Below, piece after piece: positions 8,221-25,861 of a stretch of 38,862 nucleotides of DNA (within the stretch, counting starts at the first letter, position 1; each line of letters starts with the position of its first letter). Made by a program: the position numbers and the translations under genes. Location of the stretch: NCBI GenBank assembly GCA_025965475.1, contig JAOPWV010000011.1, forward strand, positions 1 to 38,862, written 5' to 3'. The notes under the pieces are model-generated. The model was not told the DNA's origin. It worked only from the letters and a program-made list of their open reading frames with translations, and did no database searches. The DNA is from Frankiales bacterium (lineage in GTDB: Bacteria; Actinomycetota; Actinomycetes; Mycobacteriales; SCTD01).

Positions 8221-8727
8221 ATGCCCGCACCGCTTTTCCATGTCGTCGGCGAGGTCGAGCAGCACGTCGCGGAGGCGGGCTGGGACCAGCCGCCTCAGCT
8301 GTTCGCGCTGGTCGACACCGAGGAGCTGCTGCGGGCCGAGCCCCAGCTGGCCGGCACCATGGGCCTGGTCGCCGCCGTCCCCGGTGGCCTCACCCCGATC
8401 GCGCAGGAGCCACTGGCCGAGGGGCCGCTCGACGAGGCGCTGGCCGGAATCGTGTTCGGGACAGAGGTGCTGGGGGTGGTGCTGGTCCACGAGGTCGTCG
8501 TCCTGCCGCCGGCGGCGGAGGCGGCCGTCGGCGAGGCCGACCCGGTGGAGTACGCCGCCACGCACCCCGACCGCCGGGAGGTGCGGATGGTCGTCGGCGT
8601 GCTGCGTGACGGATCCCGCGAGGCGGTGCTGCGCCTGCGCGCCGGTTCGGACGGCGAGGACGACCGGCTCAGCGGACCCGATCTGGCGCCGGCGCTGGCG
8701 GACGCGCTGCTCGCGACCCTGGACTGA
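8221..8727 (+). CDS. PPA1309 family protein
   Basis: 168 aa acidic soluble protein recognised as the PPA1309 family, a set of actinobacterial proteins of unknown function that typically sits next to the UPF0182 and PDZ-protease genes, as here. Recognisable segments are the start (FHVVGEVEQHVAEAGWDQPP), the QLFALVDTEELL helix and the later DRREVRMVVGVLRDGSR strand region. The ATG at 8221 is preceded by CACAAT at -12 to -7, so the mRNA may be leaderless. The 3' end overlaps the 3' end of the convergent histidine kinase by 59 nt, so both C-termini are encoded by the same DNA. Confidence 0.85.
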   Translation: MPAPLFHVVGEVEQHVAEAGWDQPPQLFALVDTEELLRAEPQLAGTMGLVAAVPGGLTPIAQEPLAEGPLDEALAGIVFGTEVLGVVLVHEVVVLPPAAEAAVGEADPVEYAATHPDRREVRMVVGVLRDGSREAVLRLRAGSDGEDDRLSGPDLAPALADALLATLD

Positions 8728-11395
8728 CAGGCTCGTCGGACAGCGGCAGGTCCAGCCCGAACTCCGAGCCTCGGCCGACGGCCGACGTGAACGACAGCGG
8801 GAAGCCGGCCTGGTCAGCAAGCCGTCGTACGAACGACAGGCCGAGGCCGAGGCCGCCGACCCGCCGGGTGGCGGACCCGTCCACCTGCTCGAACGACGTG
8901 AACAGCGTGCGCCGGTCGTCCTCGGCGATGCCCGGGCCCGCATCGCGCACCGCCACGCGCACCGCGCCGCCGTTCAGCCGCGCGGTGAGGGTGATGGCGG
9001 TCCCCTGCGGCGTGTACTTCACCGCGTTGTCGATCAGCTCGTCGAGAGCCTTGCCCACCCAGGTCGGATCCACCATCACCGGGGGCAGCCCCGCCGACAG
9101 CCGCCGGGTCAGATCGGCCGCCCGGGCAGGGGCCTTCGCGCGCCAGGCGGCGAGCCGCCCGTCCACCAGCTCCTGCACGGCCACCGGCCGAGGGCTGACG
9201 GTGACCCGGCCGGCCTCGATCGCGGCCACGTCGACCAGCAGGTCGACCACCCGGCCCATCCGCAGGCTCTCGTCGCGGATGGTCGTCGCGAAGGCCGTCA
9301 CCTTCTCCGGCTCGAGGTCCGGGCGGGCGAGCAGGATCTCGGCGTAACCGCGGATGGGGGTGAGCGGCGTCCTGAGCTCGTGGCTCACGTTGGACAGGAA
9401 CTCGGTCTTCATCCGCTCGACCTCGCGCTCCCGGGTCGTGTCGCGCAGCACGAGGACGACGCCGTCGCCGCTGTCGAGCGGCGCCAACGCGACTCGCACC
9501 GGCACGGTCCCCTCGCCATCGGGTGCACCGCCCCGGTGCACCTCCCCCGCGGCGTCGAGCAGCCGGAGCGAGGGCACCGCCAGGGCGGTACCCGCGGCGT
9601 CACGTACGTCGACCACGTCGCCGAGCGGACGCCCGACCGCCTGCTCCGCGGAGGCGAGGCCGACCATCGCCAGGGCCGCCGGGTTGATGCTCGTGACCCG
9701 GCCCTCGGCGTCGGTGGCCACCAGGCCGTCGGACATGGAGGTGAGAACGGTCTGCAGGCGGGCCGCCGAGGACCGCAGGTCGTCGGTGAGCCGGGCCAGC
9801 GAACCGGTCATCGCGTCGAACGTCCTCGCCAGCGTCCCCACCTCGTCGGGGCTGGCGACGGCGGCCGTCACCGTCAGGTCGCCGCGAGCCACCCGGTTGG
9901 CCGCCGAGGTCAGCCGCCGTACCGGCTCCACCGTCCGCCGGCCCAGCAGGACCGCCAGGCCGCCGACCAGGGCGGTGGCCAGCAGCGCCGTGACGAGCAG
10001 GGCACGCAGGGCGTCGCGCTGGGCGGCCAGGGCGACCTTCGCGTCTCGCGACACCGCGATCACCCCGACCGGCTGTCCCGATCCACTGAGCACCGGCGCG
10101 AAGTGCACCGTGGGCCGCGCGCCCTGGGCCGGCACGGTCGTACCGGCGTCGGGCAGGCCCTGGCGCACACCGGCTGCGGTGGCGATCTGCGCGAGGCCGC
10201 GCCGCTGCCCCGCCGGCAGGTTGCTCGCCACGATCCGGCCGTCGATGAGGAACGACAGGCCGTACTCACCGCCGGCGTCGATGTCGTTGGTCGTGTAGGT
10301 GTCGTCGAGGCGGACGCCGTAGACGACGGCCGACGTGGGCGCGACCGGCCGGTCGACCGCCACGGCGACCACCGCCAGTCGCGGCGTCGACCCCACCAGT
10401 CGGACGCTGTCGGTCGGGACCTCGTTGAGCCGGACCGTACTGGCGAAGACCGCCTCGAGGGCCGGGTCCTGGGCCAGTCCGAGCGCCTCCGACGGGCTCA
10501 ACGGCGAGCGCCCGCCGAGTCGCTGGGTCCGCCCGTCGCGGGTCACCCGGACCACGAAGTCGCCGGTCGTCTCCCCGCTGGTGAACTGCTCGAGCGCCTG
10601 CTGGCACTGCCCGGCCGTGCAGGCCCGGGCGGCGATCGGAGCGAAGATCCGGGCCGCGTCCGCGACCCGGGTGACGTTCGCGACCCGGTCCCGGGTCGCG
10701 TCCTCGACCAGCACGTTGGACTGGCGTTGGAACGACGACACCACGACCGTGCCGACGACACCGACCGCGGCGACGGCCATCGCCAGGACACCACCGAGGA
10801 CCGCGGCCCCGACCTTGGCCAGCAGGCTGCGGCGGGCCAGGAGCACCAGGGCGACGAGGAGTGCGACCGCGCACAGCCCGCGCAGCGCGATCACGGCCAG
10901 CGCGCCGCGGGCGCTGCCGTCCGCCAGCGGTGCTGCGGCGCCGGCAGCCGCCGCGGCGAGCAGCCCCACGGCCAGCAGCGCCCCGGCCAGATCGCGCCGC
11001 GTACGCACTGACGCCACGGCGGCAAGCAGGCCGCACGCTCCGACGAGCCAGGCGGCTGCCGGGGTCGACCCGAGCGGGACGACGACGCCGGCCAGCGCGG
11101 CCGGCGGCGTGAGCGTCCGCCGCCGGGCGGGAGCGAGCGCACCGGCGTACAGCCCGGCCCCGAGGAGGACCGCACCGGCGGCCCGGCCGAGGGCGAGGGC
11201 GTCCGAGGTGGACGTGCCGAACTGCAGGGCCGTCCGGATCTCGACGACCGCGAGGACGAGGCAGCCGGCGGCGACCAGCAGTGCGCCGTGCCGGCCCCGG
11301 CGCAGGGCGAGCGCCGCACCACCGAGGGTGGCCCAGGCAGTGACCAGCAGCAGCTGGACGGCGCCGAGGAGTGCGAACGGGACCCCGGCCTCCAT
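8669..11395 (-). CDS. Large membrane sensor histidine kinase (dCACHE-like sensor, HAMP, PAS, HisKA, HATPase)
   Basis: 908 aa. The N-terminal part (about 1-230) has roughly eight hydrophobic helices. A 240-residue extracytoplasmic region follows (with CTAGQC, about 258-263), closed by another helix (about 475-500), a HAMP linker (VEPVRRLTSAANRVARGDL), a PAS domain (about 545-650), and the kinase core: H-box SNVSHELRTPLTPIRGYA with His672, N-box DELIDNAVKYTP (Asn about 790), G1 DAGPG (about 818) and G2 GLGLGL (about 848). All catalytic motifs look intact. It should autophosphorylate in response to an external or membrane signal, but no response regulator lies nearby. It follows the PDZ-protease gene by 35 nt, so it is probably co-transcribed with it. 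Confidence 0.92.
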   Translation of the reverse strand: MEAGVPFALLGAVQLLLVTAWATLGGAALALRRGRHGALLVAAGCLVLAVVEIRTALQFGTSTSDALALGRAAGAVLLGAGLYAGALAPARRRTLTPPAALAGVVVPLGSTPAAAWLVGACGLLAAVASVRTRRDLAGALLAVGLLAAAAAGAAAPLADGSARGALAVIALRGLCAVALLVALVLLARRSLLAKVGAAVLGGVLAMAVAAVGVVGTVVVSSFQRQSNVLVEDATRDRVANVTRVADAARIFAPIAARACTAGQCQQALEQFTSGETTGDFVVRVTRDGRTQRLGGRSPLSPSEALGLAQDPALEAVFASTVRLNEVPTDSVRLVGSTPRLAVVAVAVDRPVAPTSAVVYGVRLDDTYTTNDIDAGGEYGLSFLIDGRIVASNLPAGQRRGLAQIATAAGVRQGLPDAGTTVPAQGARPTVHFAPVLSGSGQPVGVIAVSRDAKVALAAQRDALRALLVTALLATALVGGLAVLLGRRTVEPVRRLTSAANRVARGDLTVTAAVASPDEVGTLARTFDAMTGSLARLTDDLRSSAARLQTVLTSMSDGLVATDAEGRVTSINPAALAMVGLASAEQAVGRPLGDVVDVRDAAGTALAVPSLRLLDAAGEVHRGGAPDGEGTVPVRVALAPLDSGDGVVLVLRDTTREREVERMKTEFLSNVSHELRTPLTPIRGYAEILLARPDLEPEKVTAFATTIRDESLRMGRVVDLLVDVAAIEAGRVTVSPRPVAVQELVDGRLAAWRAKAPARAADLTRRLSAGLPPVMVDPTWVGKALDELIDNAVKYTPQGTAITLTARLNGGAVRVAVRDAGPGIAEDDRRTLFTSFEQVDGSATRRVGGLGLGLSFVRRLADQAGFPLSFTSAVGRGSEFGLDLPLSDEPVSPGSRAARPPAPAPDRVR

Positions 11396-14315: not shown

Positions 14316-15656
14316 GTGACGCGCCCTCCGTTCGGCTTCGGGCCGTCCGGCCGTCCCGACGAGCCCGAGGACGGGGACGGCGGCGACGACCCGTTCGGCC
14401 TGTCCGCCCTGTTCGGCGCGGGCGCGGGCGGCGGCGACCTGCTCGCCCAGCTCACCTCGCTCATGTCCTGGAGCGGCGGCCCGGTCAACTGGGACCTCGC
14501 CACCCAGGTCGCGACGACCGCCGCCAAGGAGCACGACCGGGCAGCGACGGCCGAGGAGGCGCGCGCCGTGGCCGACGCCTGTCGACTCGCCGACCTGTGG
14601 CTCGAACCCCTGACCACGCTCCCGGGTTCCGGCGGCGAAGGTCAGGCCTGGACGCGGGTGGGCTGGATCGAGACGACCCTGCCGGTCTGGCGCCAGCTCG
14701 TCGACCCGGTCGCCGGGCGCGTCGTCGCCGCGATGGCCGGGGCGATGGAGAAGGGCCTGCAGGGCGGGTTCGGCGGCGCCGTGCCCCCCGAGATGATGGG
14801 CATGCTCGCCGGCGCCGGTCCCCTCAAGGGAGTCATGGAGCAGATGGGCGGTCTGGTCTTCGGCGCCCAGGTCGGTCAGGCCCTGGGCGCGCTGGCCGCG
14901 GAGGTCCTCGCCTCCACCGACATCGGGCTGCCCCTCGGTGACCCCGGCCGGCCCGCACTGCTCCCCGCCAACATCGCCGAGTTCTCGCAGGGACTCGAGG
15001 TCCCCGAGGACGAGGTGCGGCTCTACCTCGCGCTGCGCGAGAGCGCGCACCAACGGCTGTTCGCCCACGTCCCGTGGCTCAAGTCCCACCTGTTCGACGC
15101 GGTCGACGCCTACGCGCGCGGCATAGAGGTCGACCCGGCCGCGATCGAGCGGGCCGTCGAGTCGATCGACCCGGGTGACCCGGAGAGCCTGCAGCGGGCG
15201 ATGGGCGAGGGCGTGTTCGACCTGCAGCCGACACCGGCCCAGGAGGCGGCGCTGGCGCGGCTCGAGACCGCGCTCGCGCTCGTCGAGGGCTGGGTGGACG
15301 CGGTCGTGGACGCCGCAGCCCAGGGCACGCTGTCGTCGGCCGCCGCGCTGCGCGAGACGGTGCGTCGCCGCCGCGCCTCGGGCGGGCCGGCCGAGCAGAC
15401 CTTCGCCACGCTCGTCGGCCTGCAGCTGCGTCCGCGCCGGCTGCGGGAGGCGGCGGCCCTGTGGGCCGCGGTCGCGGAAGCCCGTGGCATCGAGGGCCGG
15501 GACGCGCTGTGGGCACACCCCGACCTGCTGCCCGGGCCGGACGACCTCGACGACCCGGCCGGCTTCATCGCCCGGACGGGAGCGGGCGGCTCGGGATCCC
15601 ACCAGGACAGCGGCGTCGACTGGGACGCCGAGCTCCGGGGACTCGGGGACTCCTAG
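14316..15656 (+). CDS. Zinc-dependent metalloprotease-like protein (DUF2342 / zincin-like)
   Basis: 446 aa. A Gly/Asp-rich N-terminus is followed by the family segment SLMSWSGGPVNWDLATQVA (about 48-66), VGWIETTLPVWRQLVDPVA (about 113-131), and LRESAHQRLFAHVPWLK (about 240-256), the conserved motif that led to a zincin assignment. The classic HEXXH is not present, so peptidase activity is an assumption. These proteins are near-universal in actinobacteria; this is the counterpart of Rv3195, and its position next to the ABC1-kinase block matches. The GTG start has GGGAGC 8 nt upstream. It is divergent from the epimerase gene with only about 60 bp between the starts. Confidence 0.87.
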   Translation: MTRPPFGFGPSGRPDEPEDGDGGDDPFGLSALFGAGAGGGDLLAQLTSLMSWSGGPVNWDLATQVATTAAKEHDRAATAEEARAVADACRLADLWLEPLTTLPGSGGEGQAWTRVGWIETTLPVWRQLVDPVAGRVVAAMAGAMEKGLQGGFGGAVPPEMMGMLAGAGPLKGVMEQMGGLVFGAQVGQALGALAAEVLASTDIGLPLGDPGRPALLPANIAEFSQGLEVPEDEVRLYLALRESAHQRLFAHVPWLKSHLFDAVDAYARGIEVDPAAIERAVESIDPGDPESLQRAMGEGVFDLQPTPAQEAALARLETALALVEGWVDAVVDAAAQGTLSSAAALRETVRRRRASGGPAEQTFATLVGLQLRPRRLREAAALWAAVAEARGIEGRDALWAHPDLLPGPDDLDDPAGFIARTGAGGSGSHQDSGVDWDAELRGLGDS

Positions 15657-15676
15657 CCCGCCAACGACGGGGCCGC

Positions 15677-16210
15677 TCACTCGTCCGACAGGTCGAGTTG
15701 TGCCCCTGCGGCGATGCCCTCGAGGTAGCCGCGGGCCCGCTCCGTGCGCGGGTACCGGCCGACCAGCCCCCAGAAGGCCGGGTCGTGGCCGGGTTGGAGC
15801 AGGTGCGCGAGTTCGTGGACGAGCACGTAGTCGACGACCCAGTCCGGCAAGCCTTGCAGCCGGCTCGAGAGCCGGATGGTCCGGTCGGCCGGCGTGCACG
15901 ACCCCCAGCGGCCGTTCTGCCGGGTCGACCAGGTGACACTCACCGGGACCGCGCGCCCCTCGAGATAGCGCTCGGACAGCCGTCCGGCCCGCTCCTCGAG
16001 CGCCTCACGGTCCGGCGTACGCCGGGCGTCCTGCCGGGCCAGCCGCCCGACCATCTCGGCGACCCACCTGTCCTCGTCGACCTGCGACATCCGCCCGGGC
16101 AGCAGCACCACGGTGCGCCCGTCCTGCCGGTACGCCGACACCGTCCGGCGTCGCCGGTCGCTGCGCACGACCTCCACCCCGTCCGGACGGGTGCGGCGGA
16201 CCGGGGGCAT
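15677..16210 (-). CDS. YgjP-like (DUF45) metallopeptidase
   Basis: 177 aa. It contains NGRWGSC (about 99-105) and the zinc-binding HELAHLLQPGHDPAFW (about 132-147), where His132, Glu133 and His136 form HEXXH and His142 is a plausible third ligand. This is the YgjP/SprT-like minigluzincin pattern, often annotated as M48-type. Family members are predicted soluble zinc peptidases, poorly characterised. The ATG at 16210 is preferred over the GTG at 16216 because a TAGCGT box at 16218-16223 predicts a start site at 16210-16211, a near-leaderless mRNA. It converges with the DUF2342 gene, 20 nt apart. Confidence 0.9.
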   Translation of the reverse strand: MPPVRRTRPDGVEVVRSDRRRRTVSAYRQDGRTVVLLPGRMSQVDEDRWVAEMVGRLARQDARRTPDREALEERAGRLSERYLEGRAVPVSVTWSTRQNGRWGSCTPADRTIRLSSRLQGLPDWVVDYVLVHELAHLLQPGHDPAFWGLVGRYPRTERARGYLEGIAAGAQLDLSDE

Positions 16211-16328
16211 GGCCACGACGCTACGGCTTCACGCTCGGACGTCCAGATCGACGCGCCCAAGGCGCAACGGCGCCCCGGGGGTCGCCCGGCGTTTGGCCAC
16301 CGATGTATCACGGCTCCGGACTTTCTTT

Positions 16329-16786: not shown

Positions 16787-18487
16787 ATGCCACACAACTC
16801 CACGCTGACGCTCCGGCACACGGCCGCTCTGCTCGCGGCCGGGCTCGCGGCCTCCACCGTGCTGGCCGCCGCTCCCGTCACGGCCGCCGGCGCAAGCGCC
16901 GAACATCGTGTCGTGGTCACCGCCCTGTCGGGCGACGTGGCGGCGGCGGCCTCGGCCGTCCGCGCCGCCGGCGGCCGCATCCTCGACCGCATCCCGCTCA
17001 TCGGCGGCGTGACGGCCAGTCTGCCGGCGGGCACCGTCCTCGCCCCGGCGTACCGCGTCGCCCCTGACCGGCCGCTCAGCGTCGCCGCGGCTCGGGACCG
17101 TCGCGGCGACAACAGCGACGGCAACGGCAACGGCAACAAGGGCGGCGCGGGCAAGGCCGGCTCCGCTGTGTCCGGCGCGGGCAACGGCATCACCGTTGCC
17201 GTCGTCGACACGGGTGTGGCCGACGTGGCCGACCTGGGCGGCCGCGTGACCCACCTGAACGTGAGCGGCCGGGGCAGCGGCGACGGCTTCGGCCACGGCA
17301 CGTTCGTGGCGGGTCTCGTCGCCGGCGACGGCACGAGCTCCCAGGGGAAGCACACCGGCGTGGCCCCCGGCGCCTCCGTCCTCGACGTCCGGGTCGCCGA
17401 CGCCCAGGGCAACTCCAACCTGATCACCGTGCTGCGGGGCCTGCAGGCCGTCGCCAACTACAACGAGAACCACAAGGTCTCGGTGCTCAACCTGTCGCTG
17501 GCGTCCGGCAGCCCGCTGCCGTACCAGATCGACCCCCTGAGCTCAGCCCTCGAGGCCCTCTGGAACAGGGGCGTCACGGTCGTCGTGCCGTCCGGCAACG
17601 ACCCGGACCAGGTCAGCTCCCCCGGCAACGACCCCGTACTGCTCACCCTCGGTGCACTGGAGCAGGGCGCCGCCGCCGACCACAGCGCCGACACCGTGGT
17701 GGAGTTCTCCGGCCGCGGCCCCGCCGCACAGGGCGTCGCCAAGCCCGATCTGGTGGCGACCGGTTCCCACGTCGTGTCCCTTCGGGCTCCCGGCAGCGTC
17801 ATCGACTCGGCGAACCCGGGCAGCCGGGTGGACGGCTCCTACTTCCGCGGATCGGGCACCTCGTTCTCGACGGCCGTCGCCTCCGGGGCGGTCGCCGTGC
17901 TGCTCTCCCAGCGCCCCGGCCTCACGCCCGACCAGGTCAAGGCGCTGCTGACCGCGACCGCGTACCAGGCCCCCGGTCTTGCCGATCGCAGGGCGGCCGG
18001 CGCCGGCGGTCTGGACCTGGCAAAGGCGCTCGCCGCGCCGACCCCGGCCGACCCCGGCAACACGTCGGTCCAGGTCCCCGGCGACCCCGAGCTCTGGGCG
18101 ACGTTCCTGTCGGCCGTGATCTCCGGCGACCGCAAGGCGGCCGCCAGCAGCTGGTCCAGGCTCTCCCCCGAGGCCCGCAACTGGGCGGCCAGCAGCTGGT
18201 CCTCGCTCAGCTTCGAGGCCCGCAACTGGGCGGCGCGTAACTGGGCCGGACGCGACTGGGCCGGCGCGGACGGGACCGCCGAGGAATGGGCGGCGCGCAA
18301 CTGGGCCGCCCGCAACTGGGCCGCCAGCAGCTGGAGCGCCAGCAGCTGGAGCGCGCGGAACTGGGCGGCGCGCAACTGGGCCGCGAGCAGCTGGAGCGCC
18401 AGCAGCTGGTCGGACGACGACTGGGCCGCCCGCAACTGGGCCGCGAGCAGCTGGTCCGCCCGCAACTGGGCCGGCATCTGGAGGTAG
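16787..18487 (+). CDS. Secreted S8 subtilisin-like protease with Trp-pentad tail
   Basis: 566 aa. Residues 1-33 form a signal peptide with likely cleavage after an Ala motif near 30-38. Residues 40-100 look like an inhibitor-I9-type propeptide, followed by a Gly/Asn-rich linker (about 107-135). The subtilisin domain (about 135-415) has the full triad: Asp141 in AVVDTG, His170 in GHGTFVAG and Ser359 in GTSFSTAVASG, with oxyanion Asn271 in PSGND. The C-terminal 110 residues are built from RNWAA- and SSWSA-type pentads, with Trp on a strict 5-residue register; I know no named domain like this. No LPXTG or membrane anchor is present. The ATG has GAGGGA 6 nt upstream. The histidine kinase gene starts 57 nt downstream, so the two are probably co-transcribed. 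Confidence 0.95.
   Translation: MPHNSTLTLRHTAALLAAGLAASTVLAAAPVTAAGASAEHRVVVTALSGDVAAAASAVRAAGGRILDRIPLIGGVTASLPAGTVLAPAYRVAPDRPLSVAAARDRRGDNSDGNGNGNKGGAGKAGSAVSGAGNGITVAVVDTGVADVADLGGRVTHLNVSGRGSGDGFGHGTFVAGLVAGDGTSSQGKHTGVAPGASVLDVRVADAQGNSNLITVLRGLQAVANYNENHKVSVLNLSLASGSPLPYQIDPLSSALEALWNRGVTVVVPSGNDPDQVSSPGNDPVLLTLGALEQGAAADHSADTVVEFSGRGPAAQGVAKPDLVATGSHVVSLRAPGSVIDSANPGSRVDGSYFRGSGTSFSTAVASGAVAVLLSQRPGLTPDQVKALLTATAYQAPGLADRRAAGAGGLDLAKALAAPTPADPGNTSVQVPGDPELWATFLSAVISGDRKAAASSWSRLSPEARNWAASSWSSLSFEARNWAARNWAGRDWAGADGTAEEWAARNWAARNWAASSWSASSWSARNWAARNWAASSWSASSWSDDDWAARNWAASSWSARNWAGIWR
18146..18475 (+). repeat. 15-bp tandem repeats encoding Trp pentads
   Basis: Twenty-two consecutive 15-nt units in the S8 gene. 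Trp stands at residues 456, 466, 471, 481, 486, 491 and then every five residues from 501 to 561; residue 476 is Phe, while 461 and 496 lack an aromatic. Two unit types alternate, CGCAACTGGGCCGCC-like (RNWAA) and AGCAGCTGGAGCGCC-like (SSWSA). Synonymous differences between units show some age, while the near-identical ones suggest recent duplication. Confidence 0.95.
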
Positions 18488-18544: not shown

Positions 18545-20965
18545 GTGCCCGGGTTGCGCCGCCTGGTGACGTCGCTCGTCCTGATCGGGGTCGCCTTCCA
18601 GGTCGGCGTCGGGTTCGTCCTGCACGGCGCCGGACCGGTCATCTCCCTCGAGGGCGAGATGCCCTGGGCACACGAGCCACTGCTCCTGGTCCTGCTGCTC
18701 GGCCTCACCATGGTCGGCGACCTGGTCTCGGTCCGCGTCCGCCATGGGGAGGAGAGCGAGGAGCTCACCCTCTTCGAGGCCGCCGTCGTCATCGACGTCC
18801 TGCTGCTGCCGGCCGGTTGGGCGCTGCTCGTGCCGGTCGCCGCGAGCGTCCTGTGCTCCGTCATCCGCCGGCGCGAGCTGGTCAAGACCGTCTTCAACGC
18901 CGCCAACCAGGCCGCGGCCACCGCGATCCTCGTCGCGATCGTGCACCCGCTTTCCGGGCAGCCGGGGCAGACGCTGCACTGGCGCGTGGTGCTCGCGCTG
19001 GTGGTCGGGACGCTGGCGTTCACCATGGCCAACCTGGTGGCGCTCTCCCGCATCTACGGCCTGCTCGGCGACGACCCGTGGTCCATGGTCCGCGACGGGG
19101 TCCGGTTGTCTCTCGTGATGGCCCTCGGCATGGTCGGGGTCGGTGGCACCGCCGCGACCCTCGCCGGGGCGGCGCCTGCCCTGCTGCCCTTCACCGTCAT
19201 CCCGGCGGTCGCGCTGACCTTCGCCTACCGGGCCGCGGCGCAGGAGTCCGAGGAGCGCCAGCGGTCCTCCCGGCTACTGGCGCTGTCCCAGGTCCTTGCC
19301 GGTCGCCTCGAACCCGAGGATCTGGTCGCGGCGTTCCTGGACCTCACCCGGCAGGCCTTCGGGGCCGACCGCGCCGTCGCCATCCGCGAGGTCACGACGG
19401 CCGCCGGCGCCGTACTGACCAGCGTCGTCGACGACCGGGAGGACGGCCGGGCCAGCCGCTCCACCGATCCGGTCGAGCGCCTCCTGCTGCTGCGGTCCGC
19501 CCAGGAGGGGGTGCTGGCCCTCGACGAGGACCTGCCCGGGGGCTGGGTACGGACCATCGTCGCGCCGCTCGAGGCCGAAGGCCGCCGGCTCGGTGCGCTC
19601 GTCCTCCTCACCCGCGACCGCCACCAGGCGCTCGGCCGCCGGGAGCTGACGCTGCTCACCCCGCTGGCCAGCGCCCTCGCGGTCGCGCTGCGTGGTGCGG
19701 CGCACGTCCAGCGCCTGACCGAGGAGACGAGCAAGCTCAAGGCCGTCGTCGACCAGTCCTCGGACGGCATCCTCGTGCTCGACGGGGCGGGCCGGGTCCA
19801 GCTCTGGAGCCCGGCGCTCGAACACCTGACCGGCCGGTCCGAGCACGCCGCCCTGGCTCGCCCTCTCGGACAGCTCATGGCCACCCTGACGGCGGACGGC
19901 GTGCCGGTCGACCCGTTCGTCGCCGGCCACTCGCTGCTGACCCCGGCCGAGCCGCGGGCGACCGTCGAGCTCACCGTGCTGCGGGAGGACGGCGAGCAGC
20001 GCGTGATCCGGTGCGCCCACGCGGCGGCGTACGACGACGCGGGCCTGCTGGTCCGCGACGTCGTGATCGTGCACGACGTGACGCGGGAGCGGGAGGTCGA
20101 GCGGCTCAAGGCGGACTTCATCGCGACGGTCTCGCACGAGCTGCGCACCCCCATCACGCCGATCAAGGGGTACGCCGACCTGCTGCGGCGCCGGGGGGAA
20201 GCCATGACGCCCCAGAAGCGACTCGAATGCCTGGAGATCATCAGCAGCCGTACCGAGCACCTGGCCCGGCTCGTCGAGGACCTGTTGCTCGCGTCGCACA
20301 TCTCCGCGCGGGCCGGCGCGGCCGCCGCCAAGGTGGAGATGTCCACCGGCGACCTCGTCGCGCTGACCTCGCGCGCCTGCGCGGACTTCGGCACGGACGG
20401 CGATCGGCTCACGCTGACCCTGCCGCCGGGCCCCGTGACCGTCGCCTGCGACCCCATGCGCGTCGTACAGATCCTGACGAACCTGGTCGGCAACGCGCTG
20501 AAGTACTCCGGCGCCGGCACCCCGGTCGACGTACGCCTGCTCGTCAGCGCCGGCCGGGCCATCGTGGAGGTGGAGGACCACGGGCGCGGCATCCCTGCCG
20601 ACCAGCTCGATCGGGTCTTCGAGAAGTTCCACCGGGTCGAGGACCCGATGCGCATGACGACCGGCGGCACCGGCCTCGGGCTCTACATCGCACGGGAGCT
20701 GGCTGCGGCGATGGGCGCGACGCTGACGTGCCGGTCCAGCCTCGGGGTGGGTTCGGCGTTCTCCGTGGCGCTGGCCGTCGTGCCCGTCGACGGCAGGCCG
20801 GCCGCCGCACCGGCGACGCGGGACGCGGCCTCGCGGCCGACCTTCGGCGACCCGGCGACCGCCGTGGCGCGCCTGCGCGGACCCCGCACGATGGCGCCGC
20901 GGGACCTCGTCGCGCCACGCCCGGACGCGGATGCCGGGGCTGCCGCCACGCTCACGCTAGGCTGA
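18545..20965 (+). CDS. Membrane sensor histidine kinase (MASE-like 5-6 TM, GAF, PAS, HisKA, HATPase)
   Basis: 806 aa. About six N-terminal membrane helices (1-225) with the pattern ELVKTVFNAANQAAATAIL resemble MASE-type integral sensory domains. A GAF-like domain follows (about 245-385), then a PAS domain (about 395-515, SSDGILVLDGAGRVQLWSP), and a complete kinase core: His531 in TVSHELRTPITPIKGYA, N-box NLVGNALKYS (Asn about 650), G1 DHGRG (about 678) and G2 GTGLGL (about 708). A 60-residue disordered tail ends the protein. No response regulator is adjacent. The GTG start has a strong GAGGAGGTGA Shine-Dalgarno. It lies 57 nt after the S8 protease, and its PAS-to-H-box linker (TREREVERLK) is nearly identical to that of the other kinase in the window. 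Confidence 0.93.
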   Translation: MPGLRRLVTSLVLIGVAFQVGVGFVLHGAGPVISLEGEMPWAHEPLLLVLLLGLTMVGDLVSVRVRHGEESEELTLFEAAVVIDVLLLPAGWALLVPVAASVLCSVIRRRELVKTVFNAANQAAATAILVAIVHPLSGQPGQTLHWRVVLALVVGTLAFTMANLVALSRIYGLLGDDPWSMVRDGVRLSLVMALGMVGVGGTAATLAGAAPALLPFTVIPAVALTFAYRAAAQESEERQRSSRLLALSQVLAGRLEPEDLVAAFLDLTRQAFGADRAVAIREVTTAAGAVLTSVVDDREDGRASRSTDPVERLLLLRSAQEGVLALDEDLPGGWVRTIVAPLEAEGRRLGALVLLTRDRHQALGRRELTLLTPLASALAVALRGAAHVQRLTEETSKLKAVVDQSSDGILVLDGAGRVQLWSPALEHLTGRSEHAALARPLGQLMATLTADGVPVDPFVAGHSLLTPAEPRATVELTVLREDGEQRVIRCAHAAAYDDAGLLVRDVVIVHDVTREREVERLKADFIATVSHELRTPITPIKGYADLLRRRGEAMTPQKRLECLEIISSRTEHLARLVEDLLLASHISARAGAAAAKVEMSTGDLVALTSRACADFGTDGDRLTLTLPPGPVTVACDPMRVVQILTNLVGNALKYSGAGTPVDVRLLVSAGRAIVEVEDHGRGIPADQLDRVFEKFHRVEDPMRMTTGGTGLGLYIARELAAAMGATLTCRSSLGVGSAFSVALAVVPVDGRPAAAPATRDAASRPTFGDPATAVARLRGPRTMAPRDLVAPRPDADAGAAATLTLG
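20958..20963 (+). promoter_or_regulatory. Possible -10 box for the DUF5679 gene
   Basis: TAGGCT overlaps the end of the histidine kinase gene, 75 nt upstream of the DUF5679 start. No convincing -35 was seen, so read-through from the kinase gene is an alternative. Confidence 0.3.
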
Positions 20966-25027: not shown

Positions 25028-25792
25028 TCAGGCGTTGTCGCCGGTACCGCCGAAGGCGCTGTCGTCACGTGCCACTGCCGGCTCCGTCGCGGTGGCCACG
25101 GCCACCGACTCGGGCGTCGAGCTGCCGGGGTCGGCGGTCGACGAGCCGTCCCCGCTGCGGGCCGGCTCGGCAGCCGGCGCGGGAGCATCCGTCGTCACGG
25201 GAGCGTCCGCTGTTACGGGGGCGGACGGTGTGCTCTCGACAGGGGTGCTGGGCTCAGCGGCGGTGGACGGCGCGGAGCCGTCGGGCGCCTCGGCCGGTGC
25301 GGCCTGCTCGACGTCACCGGTTCCCTCGGCGCGCTCCGGCCGACGGTCGGGCCGCTCGCCGCGCTGTCGGGCCTCGCCGGGCTGGCGGGGCTCGCCGGGC
25401 TGACGCGGCTGACGGGGCTCGCCGGGCTGACGGGGCTCACCGGGCTGACGGGGCTCACCCGGGCGCCGCTCCTTGCCCTGCCGGCGGCCGCGCGGCTCGT
25501 TGCCGCGGCCGGGACCCTGACGGTCCGGGGCGCCCAGGTCCATCGCCTCGGCGACGGCGTACTCCTGGACGAGCAGCTCGAGCCGCTCCTTCTCGGTGCC
25601 GGTGGCGTCCACGACGCGGCTCTCCGCGAGCGTCCGCAGGTCGGCGAGGCGCCGACGGCGACGGCCGGGATCGTCGCCGGGGTGGCGCATCAGGACCGCG
25701 TGGGCGGTACACGTCGCGGTTCCGCCGACGGAGGTGACGGCCTCGCGCACGAGCGCGAGGTCGGAAAGACAGGGGGCGCACTGCTCACTCAT
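25028..25792 (-). CDS. Disordered RQPGEP-repeat protein with Cys-containing N-terminus
   Basis: 254 aa from the ATG at 25792. Residues 1-75 form a compact region: MSEQCAPCLSDLALVREAV with Cys5 and Cys8, Cys28 in GTATCTAHAV, and a helical segment RRRRRLADLRTLAES, suggesting a small metal-binding or redox domain. Residues about 85-155 are basic and carry RQPGEP repeats. The rest (about 155-254) is an acidic Thr/Pro/Ala/Ser tail. I recognise the N-terminal CXXC/helix arrangement from small actinobacterial hypothetical proteins but know no function. The split into basic repeat and acidic tail resembles nucleic-acid-associated or phase-separating proteins, which is only an inference. It is 70 nt downstream of the SLT-like gene on the same strand. 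Confidence 0.7.
   Translation of the reverse strand: MSEQCAPCLSDLALVREAVTSVGGTATCTAHAVLMRHPGDDPGRRRRRLADLRTLAESRVVDATGTEKERLELLVQEYAVAEAMDLGAPDRQGPGRGNEPRGRRQGKERRPGEPRQPGEPRQPGEPRQPRQPGEPRQPGEARQRGERPDRRPERAEGTGDVEQAAPAEAPDGSAPSTAAEPSTPVESTPSAPVTADAPVTTDAPAPAAEPARSGDGSSTADPGSSTPESVAVATATEPAVARDDSAFGGTGDNA
25370..25462 (-). repeat. 18-bp tandem repeat (RQPGEP)
   Basis: On the plus strand, units close to GGGCTGACGGGGCTCACC recur in tandem, with one shortened unit. They encode RQPGEP hexapeptides in the disordered protein on the minus strand. The antisense frame reads a Leu/Gly repeat, which is a by-product. Confidence 0.85.
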
Positions 25793-25861
25793 GCGCACAT
25801 CTTTGCCCACGCGGGCCCCGGCACGCTCACCGCCTCGCCGACGCGGCTCCACGCGGGACGG

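Follow-up and report, generated by a model that had tools for sequence, protein, structure and literature searches.

A subtilisin-type protease with a tryptophan repeat tail and its partner membrane sensor in Frankiales: a possible peptide-receptor pair

The protease and its tryptophan array

The stretch of DNA analyzed here (the window; 38,862 nucleotides of a Frankiales bacterium contig, JAOPWV010000011.1) encodes on its forward strand a secreted 566-aa protease of the S8 (subtilisin) type with a C-terminal array of Trp-centered repeats (16787..18487; start and stop taken from the open reading frame). The next gene on the same strand, beginning 57 bp after the protease stop codon, encodes an 806-aa sensor histidine kinase (18545..20965), in which a domain search found a membrane domain, GAF, PAS, HisKA and HATPase_c. 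Just upstream of the protease gene, at 14316-16216, lie two genes predicted to encode metallopeptidases (Zincin_2 and YgjP-like), and a second, unrelated histidine kinase (HAMP, PAS, HisKA and HATPase_c) is encoded on the reverse strand at 8669-11395. All features of the protease and its partner described below lie on the forward strand.

Residues 1-34 of the protease (16787..16888) probably form a Sec signal peptide, judging from the basic start, the long Ala/Leu stretch and the low pLDDT of this part in an AlphaFold2 model. They are followed by a domain resembling the subtilisin propeptide at about residues 36-100 (16892..17086; pLDDT 85-97 over residues 41-100) and by the catalytic domain (17180..18004), where the Pfam family Peptidase_S8 (PF00082) covers residues 132-406 with an E-value of 2.9e-40. 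D141, H170, N271 and S359 show no variation among 19 relatives, nor do they in a second set of 26; with this domain and a D/H/S triad (D141, H170 and S359), the sequence assigns the protein to the S8 peptidases (subtilases). The AlphaFold2 model, for which 26 relatives were aligned, showed the subtilisin core and the propeptide-like domain with high confidence, and these aligned from residue 33 with pro-Tk-SP (3afg) at a Z-score of 48.9. The likeness to Tk-SP therefore concerns the catalytic core and the propeptide fold; we know of no Trp array and no partner sensor of Tk-SP. Behind the core, residues 434-472 (18086..18202) were modeled as helices (pLDDT about 70-84), and this segment is conserved in close orthologues. 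PF00082 was the only Pfam match to the whole protease at an E-value of 0.1, with no pentapeptide-repeat family among the results. We also considered IteS and mycosin (NCBIfam) as identities for the protein, and rejected both because the matches were far below the cut-off.

The array extends over residues 456-561 (18152..18469). The original prediction, which had marked positions 18146-18475 (residues 454-563), described Trp at 19 of 22 successive every-fifth positions and Phe at one more, and this was confirmed by a position count, in which the three exceptions were Phe at 476, Pro at 461 and Gly at 496. Residues 431-566 contain 15 pairs of Trp at a lag of five, whereas 20,000 shuffles averaged 3.0 and reached no more than 10. 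The protein terminates with ...RNWAGIWR, so that its last three codons (18479..18487) read Trp-Arg-stop, a W-x-stop ending that is shared with many other arrays and with the small peptides described below. At the DNA level the tail is a degenerate array of 15-bp units. Five TGG at 15-bp spacing occur 20 times in the window's own genome, all of them in three loci and every one in an S8 gene, whereas the reversed pattern, used as a control, occurs five times. Another tandem repeat in the window, with 9/18-bp units at 25354-25464, belongs to a 274-aa open reading frame on the minus strand (25028-25852) with repeats rich in Gly, Glu, Pro, Arg and Gln (GEPRQP).

Two further Trp-array S8 proteins are encoded in the window's own genome, and genomes of the same family contain one to thirteen S8 matches each, many of which carry the array. 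The relatives that could be named were Frankiales metagenome assemblies, Actinoplanes, Pseudosporangium, Virgisporangium, Dactylosporangium, Blastococcus and Cellulomonas. Their units vary (RNWAA, RQWSA, HRWAA, SMWGA, STWSG, NAWTG, QSWYG and others) while the spacing of Trp is constant, with mostly small residues three positions before and two positions after Trp. Thus, the Trp register is conserved in homologues, as originally anticipated, and so is the expectation of a variable unit number borne out, given that the window protease contains 22 Trp in total and its closest orthologues 24-32. Among 136 arrays, the commonest Trp spacing was 5 in 91 and 6 in 35; in the Acidobacteriota and some Gammaproteobacteria, Trp recurs mostly every six residues and less regularly, and the acidobacterial tails have no W-x ending. 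Of 68 period-5 arrays, 35 stop exactly one residue past the last Trp, while any other single exact ending is found in six at most, and 13 continue for more than seven residues past it.

We then considered the structure of the tail. For most of residues 473-566, the AlphaFold2 model had pLDDT values of about 28-48, and the Trp tail is thus predicted to be disordered, a low-confidence model that, with a shallow alignment of 26 sequences, does not exclude a fold. The original prediction had proposed a quadrilateral beta-helix or a Trp ladder that binds cell-wall glycan, and the strict register in many arrays would be in keeping with such a structure. However, the identity between units at non-Trp positions declines smoothly over 46 arrays (0.454, 0.448, 0.431 and 0.421 at lags 5 to 20), which argues against the four-unit turn of a pentapeptide solenoid and leaves no 20-residue super-period. 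The six-residue and irregular spacing in other phyla also speaks against a solenoid, as does the position two before Trp, which is not limited to small residues in the arrays; in pentapeptide-repeat proteins, the corresponding position is restricted to small residues. For the glycan-binding ladder we found nothing in support. Disorder together with a loss of the register in homologues had been named as the outcome that would count against a distinct domain; the disorder is predicted here, but the register is kept. The tail does lie outside known domains, as had been claimed, with no model in Pfam or NCBIfam profile searches covering it. Taken together, we regard a Trp-centered solenoid or wall-binding ladder as very improbable. 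We give still less credence to a functionless tail expanded by replication slippage: 15-bp units in variable number are what slippage would produce, but it would not explain why the Trp spacing is fixed despite divergence elsewhere, in several phyla and next to the same gene partner.

The partner gene and its membrane domain

The protease-kinase pair is conserved in relatives, with orthologues at 56-74% identity. Next to paralogous array proteases, the following gene encodes a GGDEF-EAL protein, a SpoIIE protein or a protein without an output domain. An iterated profile built from the first 245 residues of the kinase showed that a single membrane domain of about 235 residues is common to the partners. 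Among 60 partners, 31 carried GGDEF and EAL, 23 HisKA and five SpoIIE domains, with GAF in 33 and PAS in 30. We counted unique S8 genes in the fetched loci, leaving out contigs that end too early, and found that 95 of 123 array-bearing S8 genes adjoin a member of this sensor family (83 downstream on the same strand, and 12 divergent, such as L140, L142, L146 and L151) and 28 do not, in contrast to only two of 26 array-less S8 genes (24 without a sensor). The odds ratio is 41 with a p-value of 2.6e-11, a value uncorrected for relatedness among genomes many of which are metagenome assemblies. In 83 cases the sensor domain starts at a median of 47 nt past the protease stop.

We also conducted an independent check, in which eight TGG at 15-bp spacing were searched for in 297 genomes of the class using neither the S8 nor the sensor sequence, and 30 loci were kept. 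Thirteen arrays lay inside S8 open reading frames, and 11 of these had a sensor 14-275 bp downstream, one was on a contig cut short and one had none. Neither S8 nor sensor was present at the remaining 17 loci, most of which were simple DNA repeats. The pairing of the protease and sensor genes is therefore well supported. It was foreshadowed by the original suggestion that the tail binds the partner kinase: the linkage of the array to a membrane sensor gene has become the main feature of the system. In two Virgisporangium species (L118, 7372-9198; L121, 7235-9064), an HSP90/HATPase-like protein follows the Trp-array protease instead of a sensor. A locus that appeared to encode a 1426-aa protease-sensor fusion (L083) actually consists of two overlapping long frames.

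Sensors with and without an S8 link cluster in part on the sensor tree, where the label changes 15 times compared with 30 on average after shuffling; the S8 link has thus been gained or lost many times. Among the period-5 pairs, the correlation of the repeat sequence with the sensor is weak when the protease core is controlled for (partial Mantel test; partial r 0.085, compared with 0.34 for the array with the core), and lock-and-key co-evolution of the repeat and the sensor finds no clear support in it.

These features may also be read in terms of tethering, where the array is a multivalent handle that keeps the protease at the sensor or membrane, and the sensor reports the state of the protease or its substrate with no peptide being released. 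A tail modeled as disordered, the tight gene coupling, the weak co-variation with the sensor, and the retention of Trp while the repeat sequence varies, as multivalent weak binding would predict, are all consistent with a handle. However, an exact W-x end in half of the arrays would be unexpected for it.

Next, we modeled the membrane domain of the sensor (AlphaFold2; pLDDT 92.9, pTM 0.89). The model comprises an extra N-terminal helix resembling H0 (residues 2-25; 18548..18619; compare PMC11109136) and a MASE9-like membrane domain (residues 40-212; 18662..19180). Structure comparison of residues 40-212 with Foldseek and VIA-align yielded 21 ECF S-component entries at Z-scores of 9.7-13.7, including RibU, FolT, ThiT, BioY, PanT and CbiM/NikM, and the next unrelated protein scored 6.6. 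The domain is thus predicted to have the six-helix S-component fold with an extra N-terminal helix. The window sensor matched MASE9 (PF20972) at 13.6-16 bits, below the curated cut-off of 24.3, and had no match to PF07694 in Pfam; in other words, it reaches the cut-off of none of the named sequence families. Yet the weak likeness to MASE9 is repeated among the sensor partners, six of 60 matching at an E-value of 0.001 or better, and one relative (L040) scored 24.6 bits, just above the cut-off. To our knowledge, no ligand of MASE9 has been reported. The pockets of S-component-type domains hold small, often aromatic, molecules, and a Trp side chain or the end of a short peptide could sit in such a pocket. 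No relative of the sensor domain was found in plasmid records.

It has previously been reported that the 5TMR sensor kinases have the S-component fold with an extra helix in front (Partipilo and Slotboom, PMC11109136). The window sensor resembles the members BtsS and YpdA in this extra N-terminal helix, the six-helix S-component fold and the cytoplasmic signaling domains (PMC11109136). It differs in lacking PF07694 and matching, weakly, PF20972; moreover, the ligand of BtsS is pyruvate (PMC11109136) and not a peptide.

Small Trp peptide genes upstream of protease-free sensors

Many members of the sensor family have no S8 gene, and two of them belong to the window's own genome. We examined the upstream regions of 79 such genes and found that they are often preceded by open reading frames ending in W-x-stop. 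Within the 300 nt before the sensor, frames of 18-260 codons with this ending numbered 26 of 147 on the sensor strand and two of 128 on the opposite strand. When shorter frames were included, TGG lay two codons before 37 of 388 stops, compared with 26 of 690 in control windows. No W-x-stop was found upstream of 47 of the 79 sensors, including the two in the window's genome (G000:C101, L233 1621-3072; G000:C142, L234 1951-3225), which have neither an S8 gene nor a W-x micro-ORF upstream.

The peptides are of several types. In the first, a signal-peptide-like stretch is followed by three to four copies of AGTSWH, GAVWN, GASWN, GATWN or ASNGWQ; overall, precursors with a signal peptide contain one to four copies, as exemplified by ...AGTSWHKSTVVAGTSWHTAGTSWH and by a fourfold ...GAVWN. 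The second type is leaderless and consists of DGNTWTFV (five copies), DGGSWTFA (four copies) or PGTGWHLIT repeats. Micro-ORFs of 7-9 codons, which have no signal peptide and lie about 105 nt before the sensor domain, occur in tandem at three loci (MRGATWG, MQLDGTHWG and [M/V]RANGWS, two copies each). Each has its own Shine-Dalgarno sequence, and apart from ATG/GTG starts and TGA/TAA stops, their codon differences are synonymous. In the genus of G037, where DNA similarity to the sensor region was used to retrieve 20 loci, a heptapeptide frame M-x-x-x-[D/E]-W-x-stop (ATG-NNN-NNN-NNN-GAN-TGG-NNN-stop) was present at all 20, among them MSAHEWL, MSAHEWN, MKSHEWT, MRGNDWL and MRSTEWN (twice in one locus). 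It starts 125-140 nt before the sensor domain (at one locus also 221 nt) and was never found on the opposite strand. Conserved DNA blocks before the heptapeptide frame at these loci (L408-L427; around ttgcgcata..gacattta) resemble a shared promoter, and at L424 an apparent decayed copy (MRRTD-stop) lies beside an intact MRSTEWG micro-ORF upstream of the sensor gene. An acidic residue before the terminal Trp is a weak signal overall (8/35 vs 44/487, p 0.016), and we rejected a strongly acidic residue at this position as a common rule.

A conserved small peptide gene beside a receptor gene is a trait of peptide pheromone systems, and it is found here, where the sensor's role as partner is suggested by adjacency. 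Given that period-5 arrays often end one residue past Trp and that the window tail ends in ...GIWR, a C-terminal W-x is common to the protease tail and the small peptides. A similarity search for stand-alone array peptides in 250 genomes of the order gave true matches only in the sister genomes G031 and G334; the candidates in G420 and G453 were rejected because they belong to other long frames, whose repeats have a period of 8 and which have no sensor in the vicinity. Pairs of a protease-free sensor and a small Trp peptide need no handle, and we consider the tethering role described above unlikely.

The second main rival to a peptide input is that the W-x-stop before the sensor gene acts in cis as a translation or attenuation signal, the peptide having no receptor. 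The Trp leader and TnaC-type peptides are precedents for such leaders, and the micro-ORFs would suit this role, being 7-9 codons long, each with a Shine-Dalgarno sequence, near the sensor domain and sometimes in tandem; many S8 arrays also end in W-x-stop near the sensor start. However, a leader does not account for the roughly 20 Trp that precede the last one or for the signal peptides on the small precursors, and at 12 loci the sensor is transcribed divergently from the array. The divergent loci and the signal peptides suggest that a leader is not the general answer, and we find this explanation improbable.

A possible peptide-receptor system

Based on these results, we propose that the S-component-fold sensor takes as its input peptides ending in Trp-x, whether these are part of a protease tail or have genes of their own, and we give this reading a probability of roughly 0.55. 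The S8 protease would be secreted with its own propeptide, with some 20 short Trp motifs along a disordered tail that ends in W-x-COOH, and this tail would supply the peptide of a peptide-receptor pair. The S-component-type domain of the membrane receptor encoded by the next gene would take up the Trp-containing peptide end, either as the tethered tail or as pieces cut off by this or another protease. Binding may then set the cytoplasmic output, which would be a kinase here and c-di-GMP turnover, SpoIIE or others elsewhere, and the peptide may signal between cells or report on the cell's own protease. Related receptors without a protease would use the same type of peptide from separate small genes. 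Counting against a peptide input are the weak co-variation of repeat and sensor, the 28 arrays without a sensor, the 47 of 79 sensors without a small frame, the acidobacterial tails that lack a W-x end, and the absence of signal peptides from the micro-ORFs.

In its broadest form, the proposal would introduce a new class of bacterial peptide signaling, with Trp-x-COOH peptides, S-component-fold receptors and interchangeable outputs, where the peptides come in three formats: frames of 7-9 codons, secreted precursors of one to several copies, and dedicated S8 tails of about 20 copies. We put this forward tentatively, as somewhat short of an even chance. There are precedents for tandem pheromone precursors with maturation by extracellular proteases, and for kinases with the S-component fold. 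In the open literature that we searched, we found no system in which an array-carrying protease, a Trp-x motif and a partner with the S-component fold come together. That literature contained nothing relevant on MASE9 with S8, Trp repeats or micro-ORFs, and work in closed journals is possible.

The yeast alpha-factor, Kex2 and Ste2 offer a likeness of design only: tandem Trp-containing peptide copies, an S8-type processing protease and a seven-helix receptor, but eukaryotic, in separate genes and with an unrelated receptor. Among bacteria, the Rap-Phr systems of Bacillus use short peptide pheromones that are encoded as tandemly duplicated Phr propeptides and matured by extracellular proteases (PMC11343458); in a passage of that article (its reference 23), maturation is ascribed to subtilisin, Epr and Vpr. 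The systems are alike in their repeated short-peptide precursors, and the present system may also resemble Rap-Phr in maturation by an extracellular protease. They differ in that here the array is fused to an S8 protease, the motif is Trp-centered, and the putative receptor is a membrane protein of the S-component fold in contrast to the cytoplasmic Rap. By the features compared, the present system does not belong to Rap-Phr (RRNPPA), given that its partner is a membrane sensor with kinase or c-di-GMP domains and that there is no cytoplasmic TPR receptor.

If this proposal is true, then a ligand type would be predicted for a common but orphan group of membrane sensors in bacteria, of which many are c-di-GMP enzymes. 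It would be readable from the genome alone, with the peptide encoded beside its receptor. It would also mean that a protease can bear its own signal array, and that the S-component fold extends from vitamin binding to the sensing of peptides.
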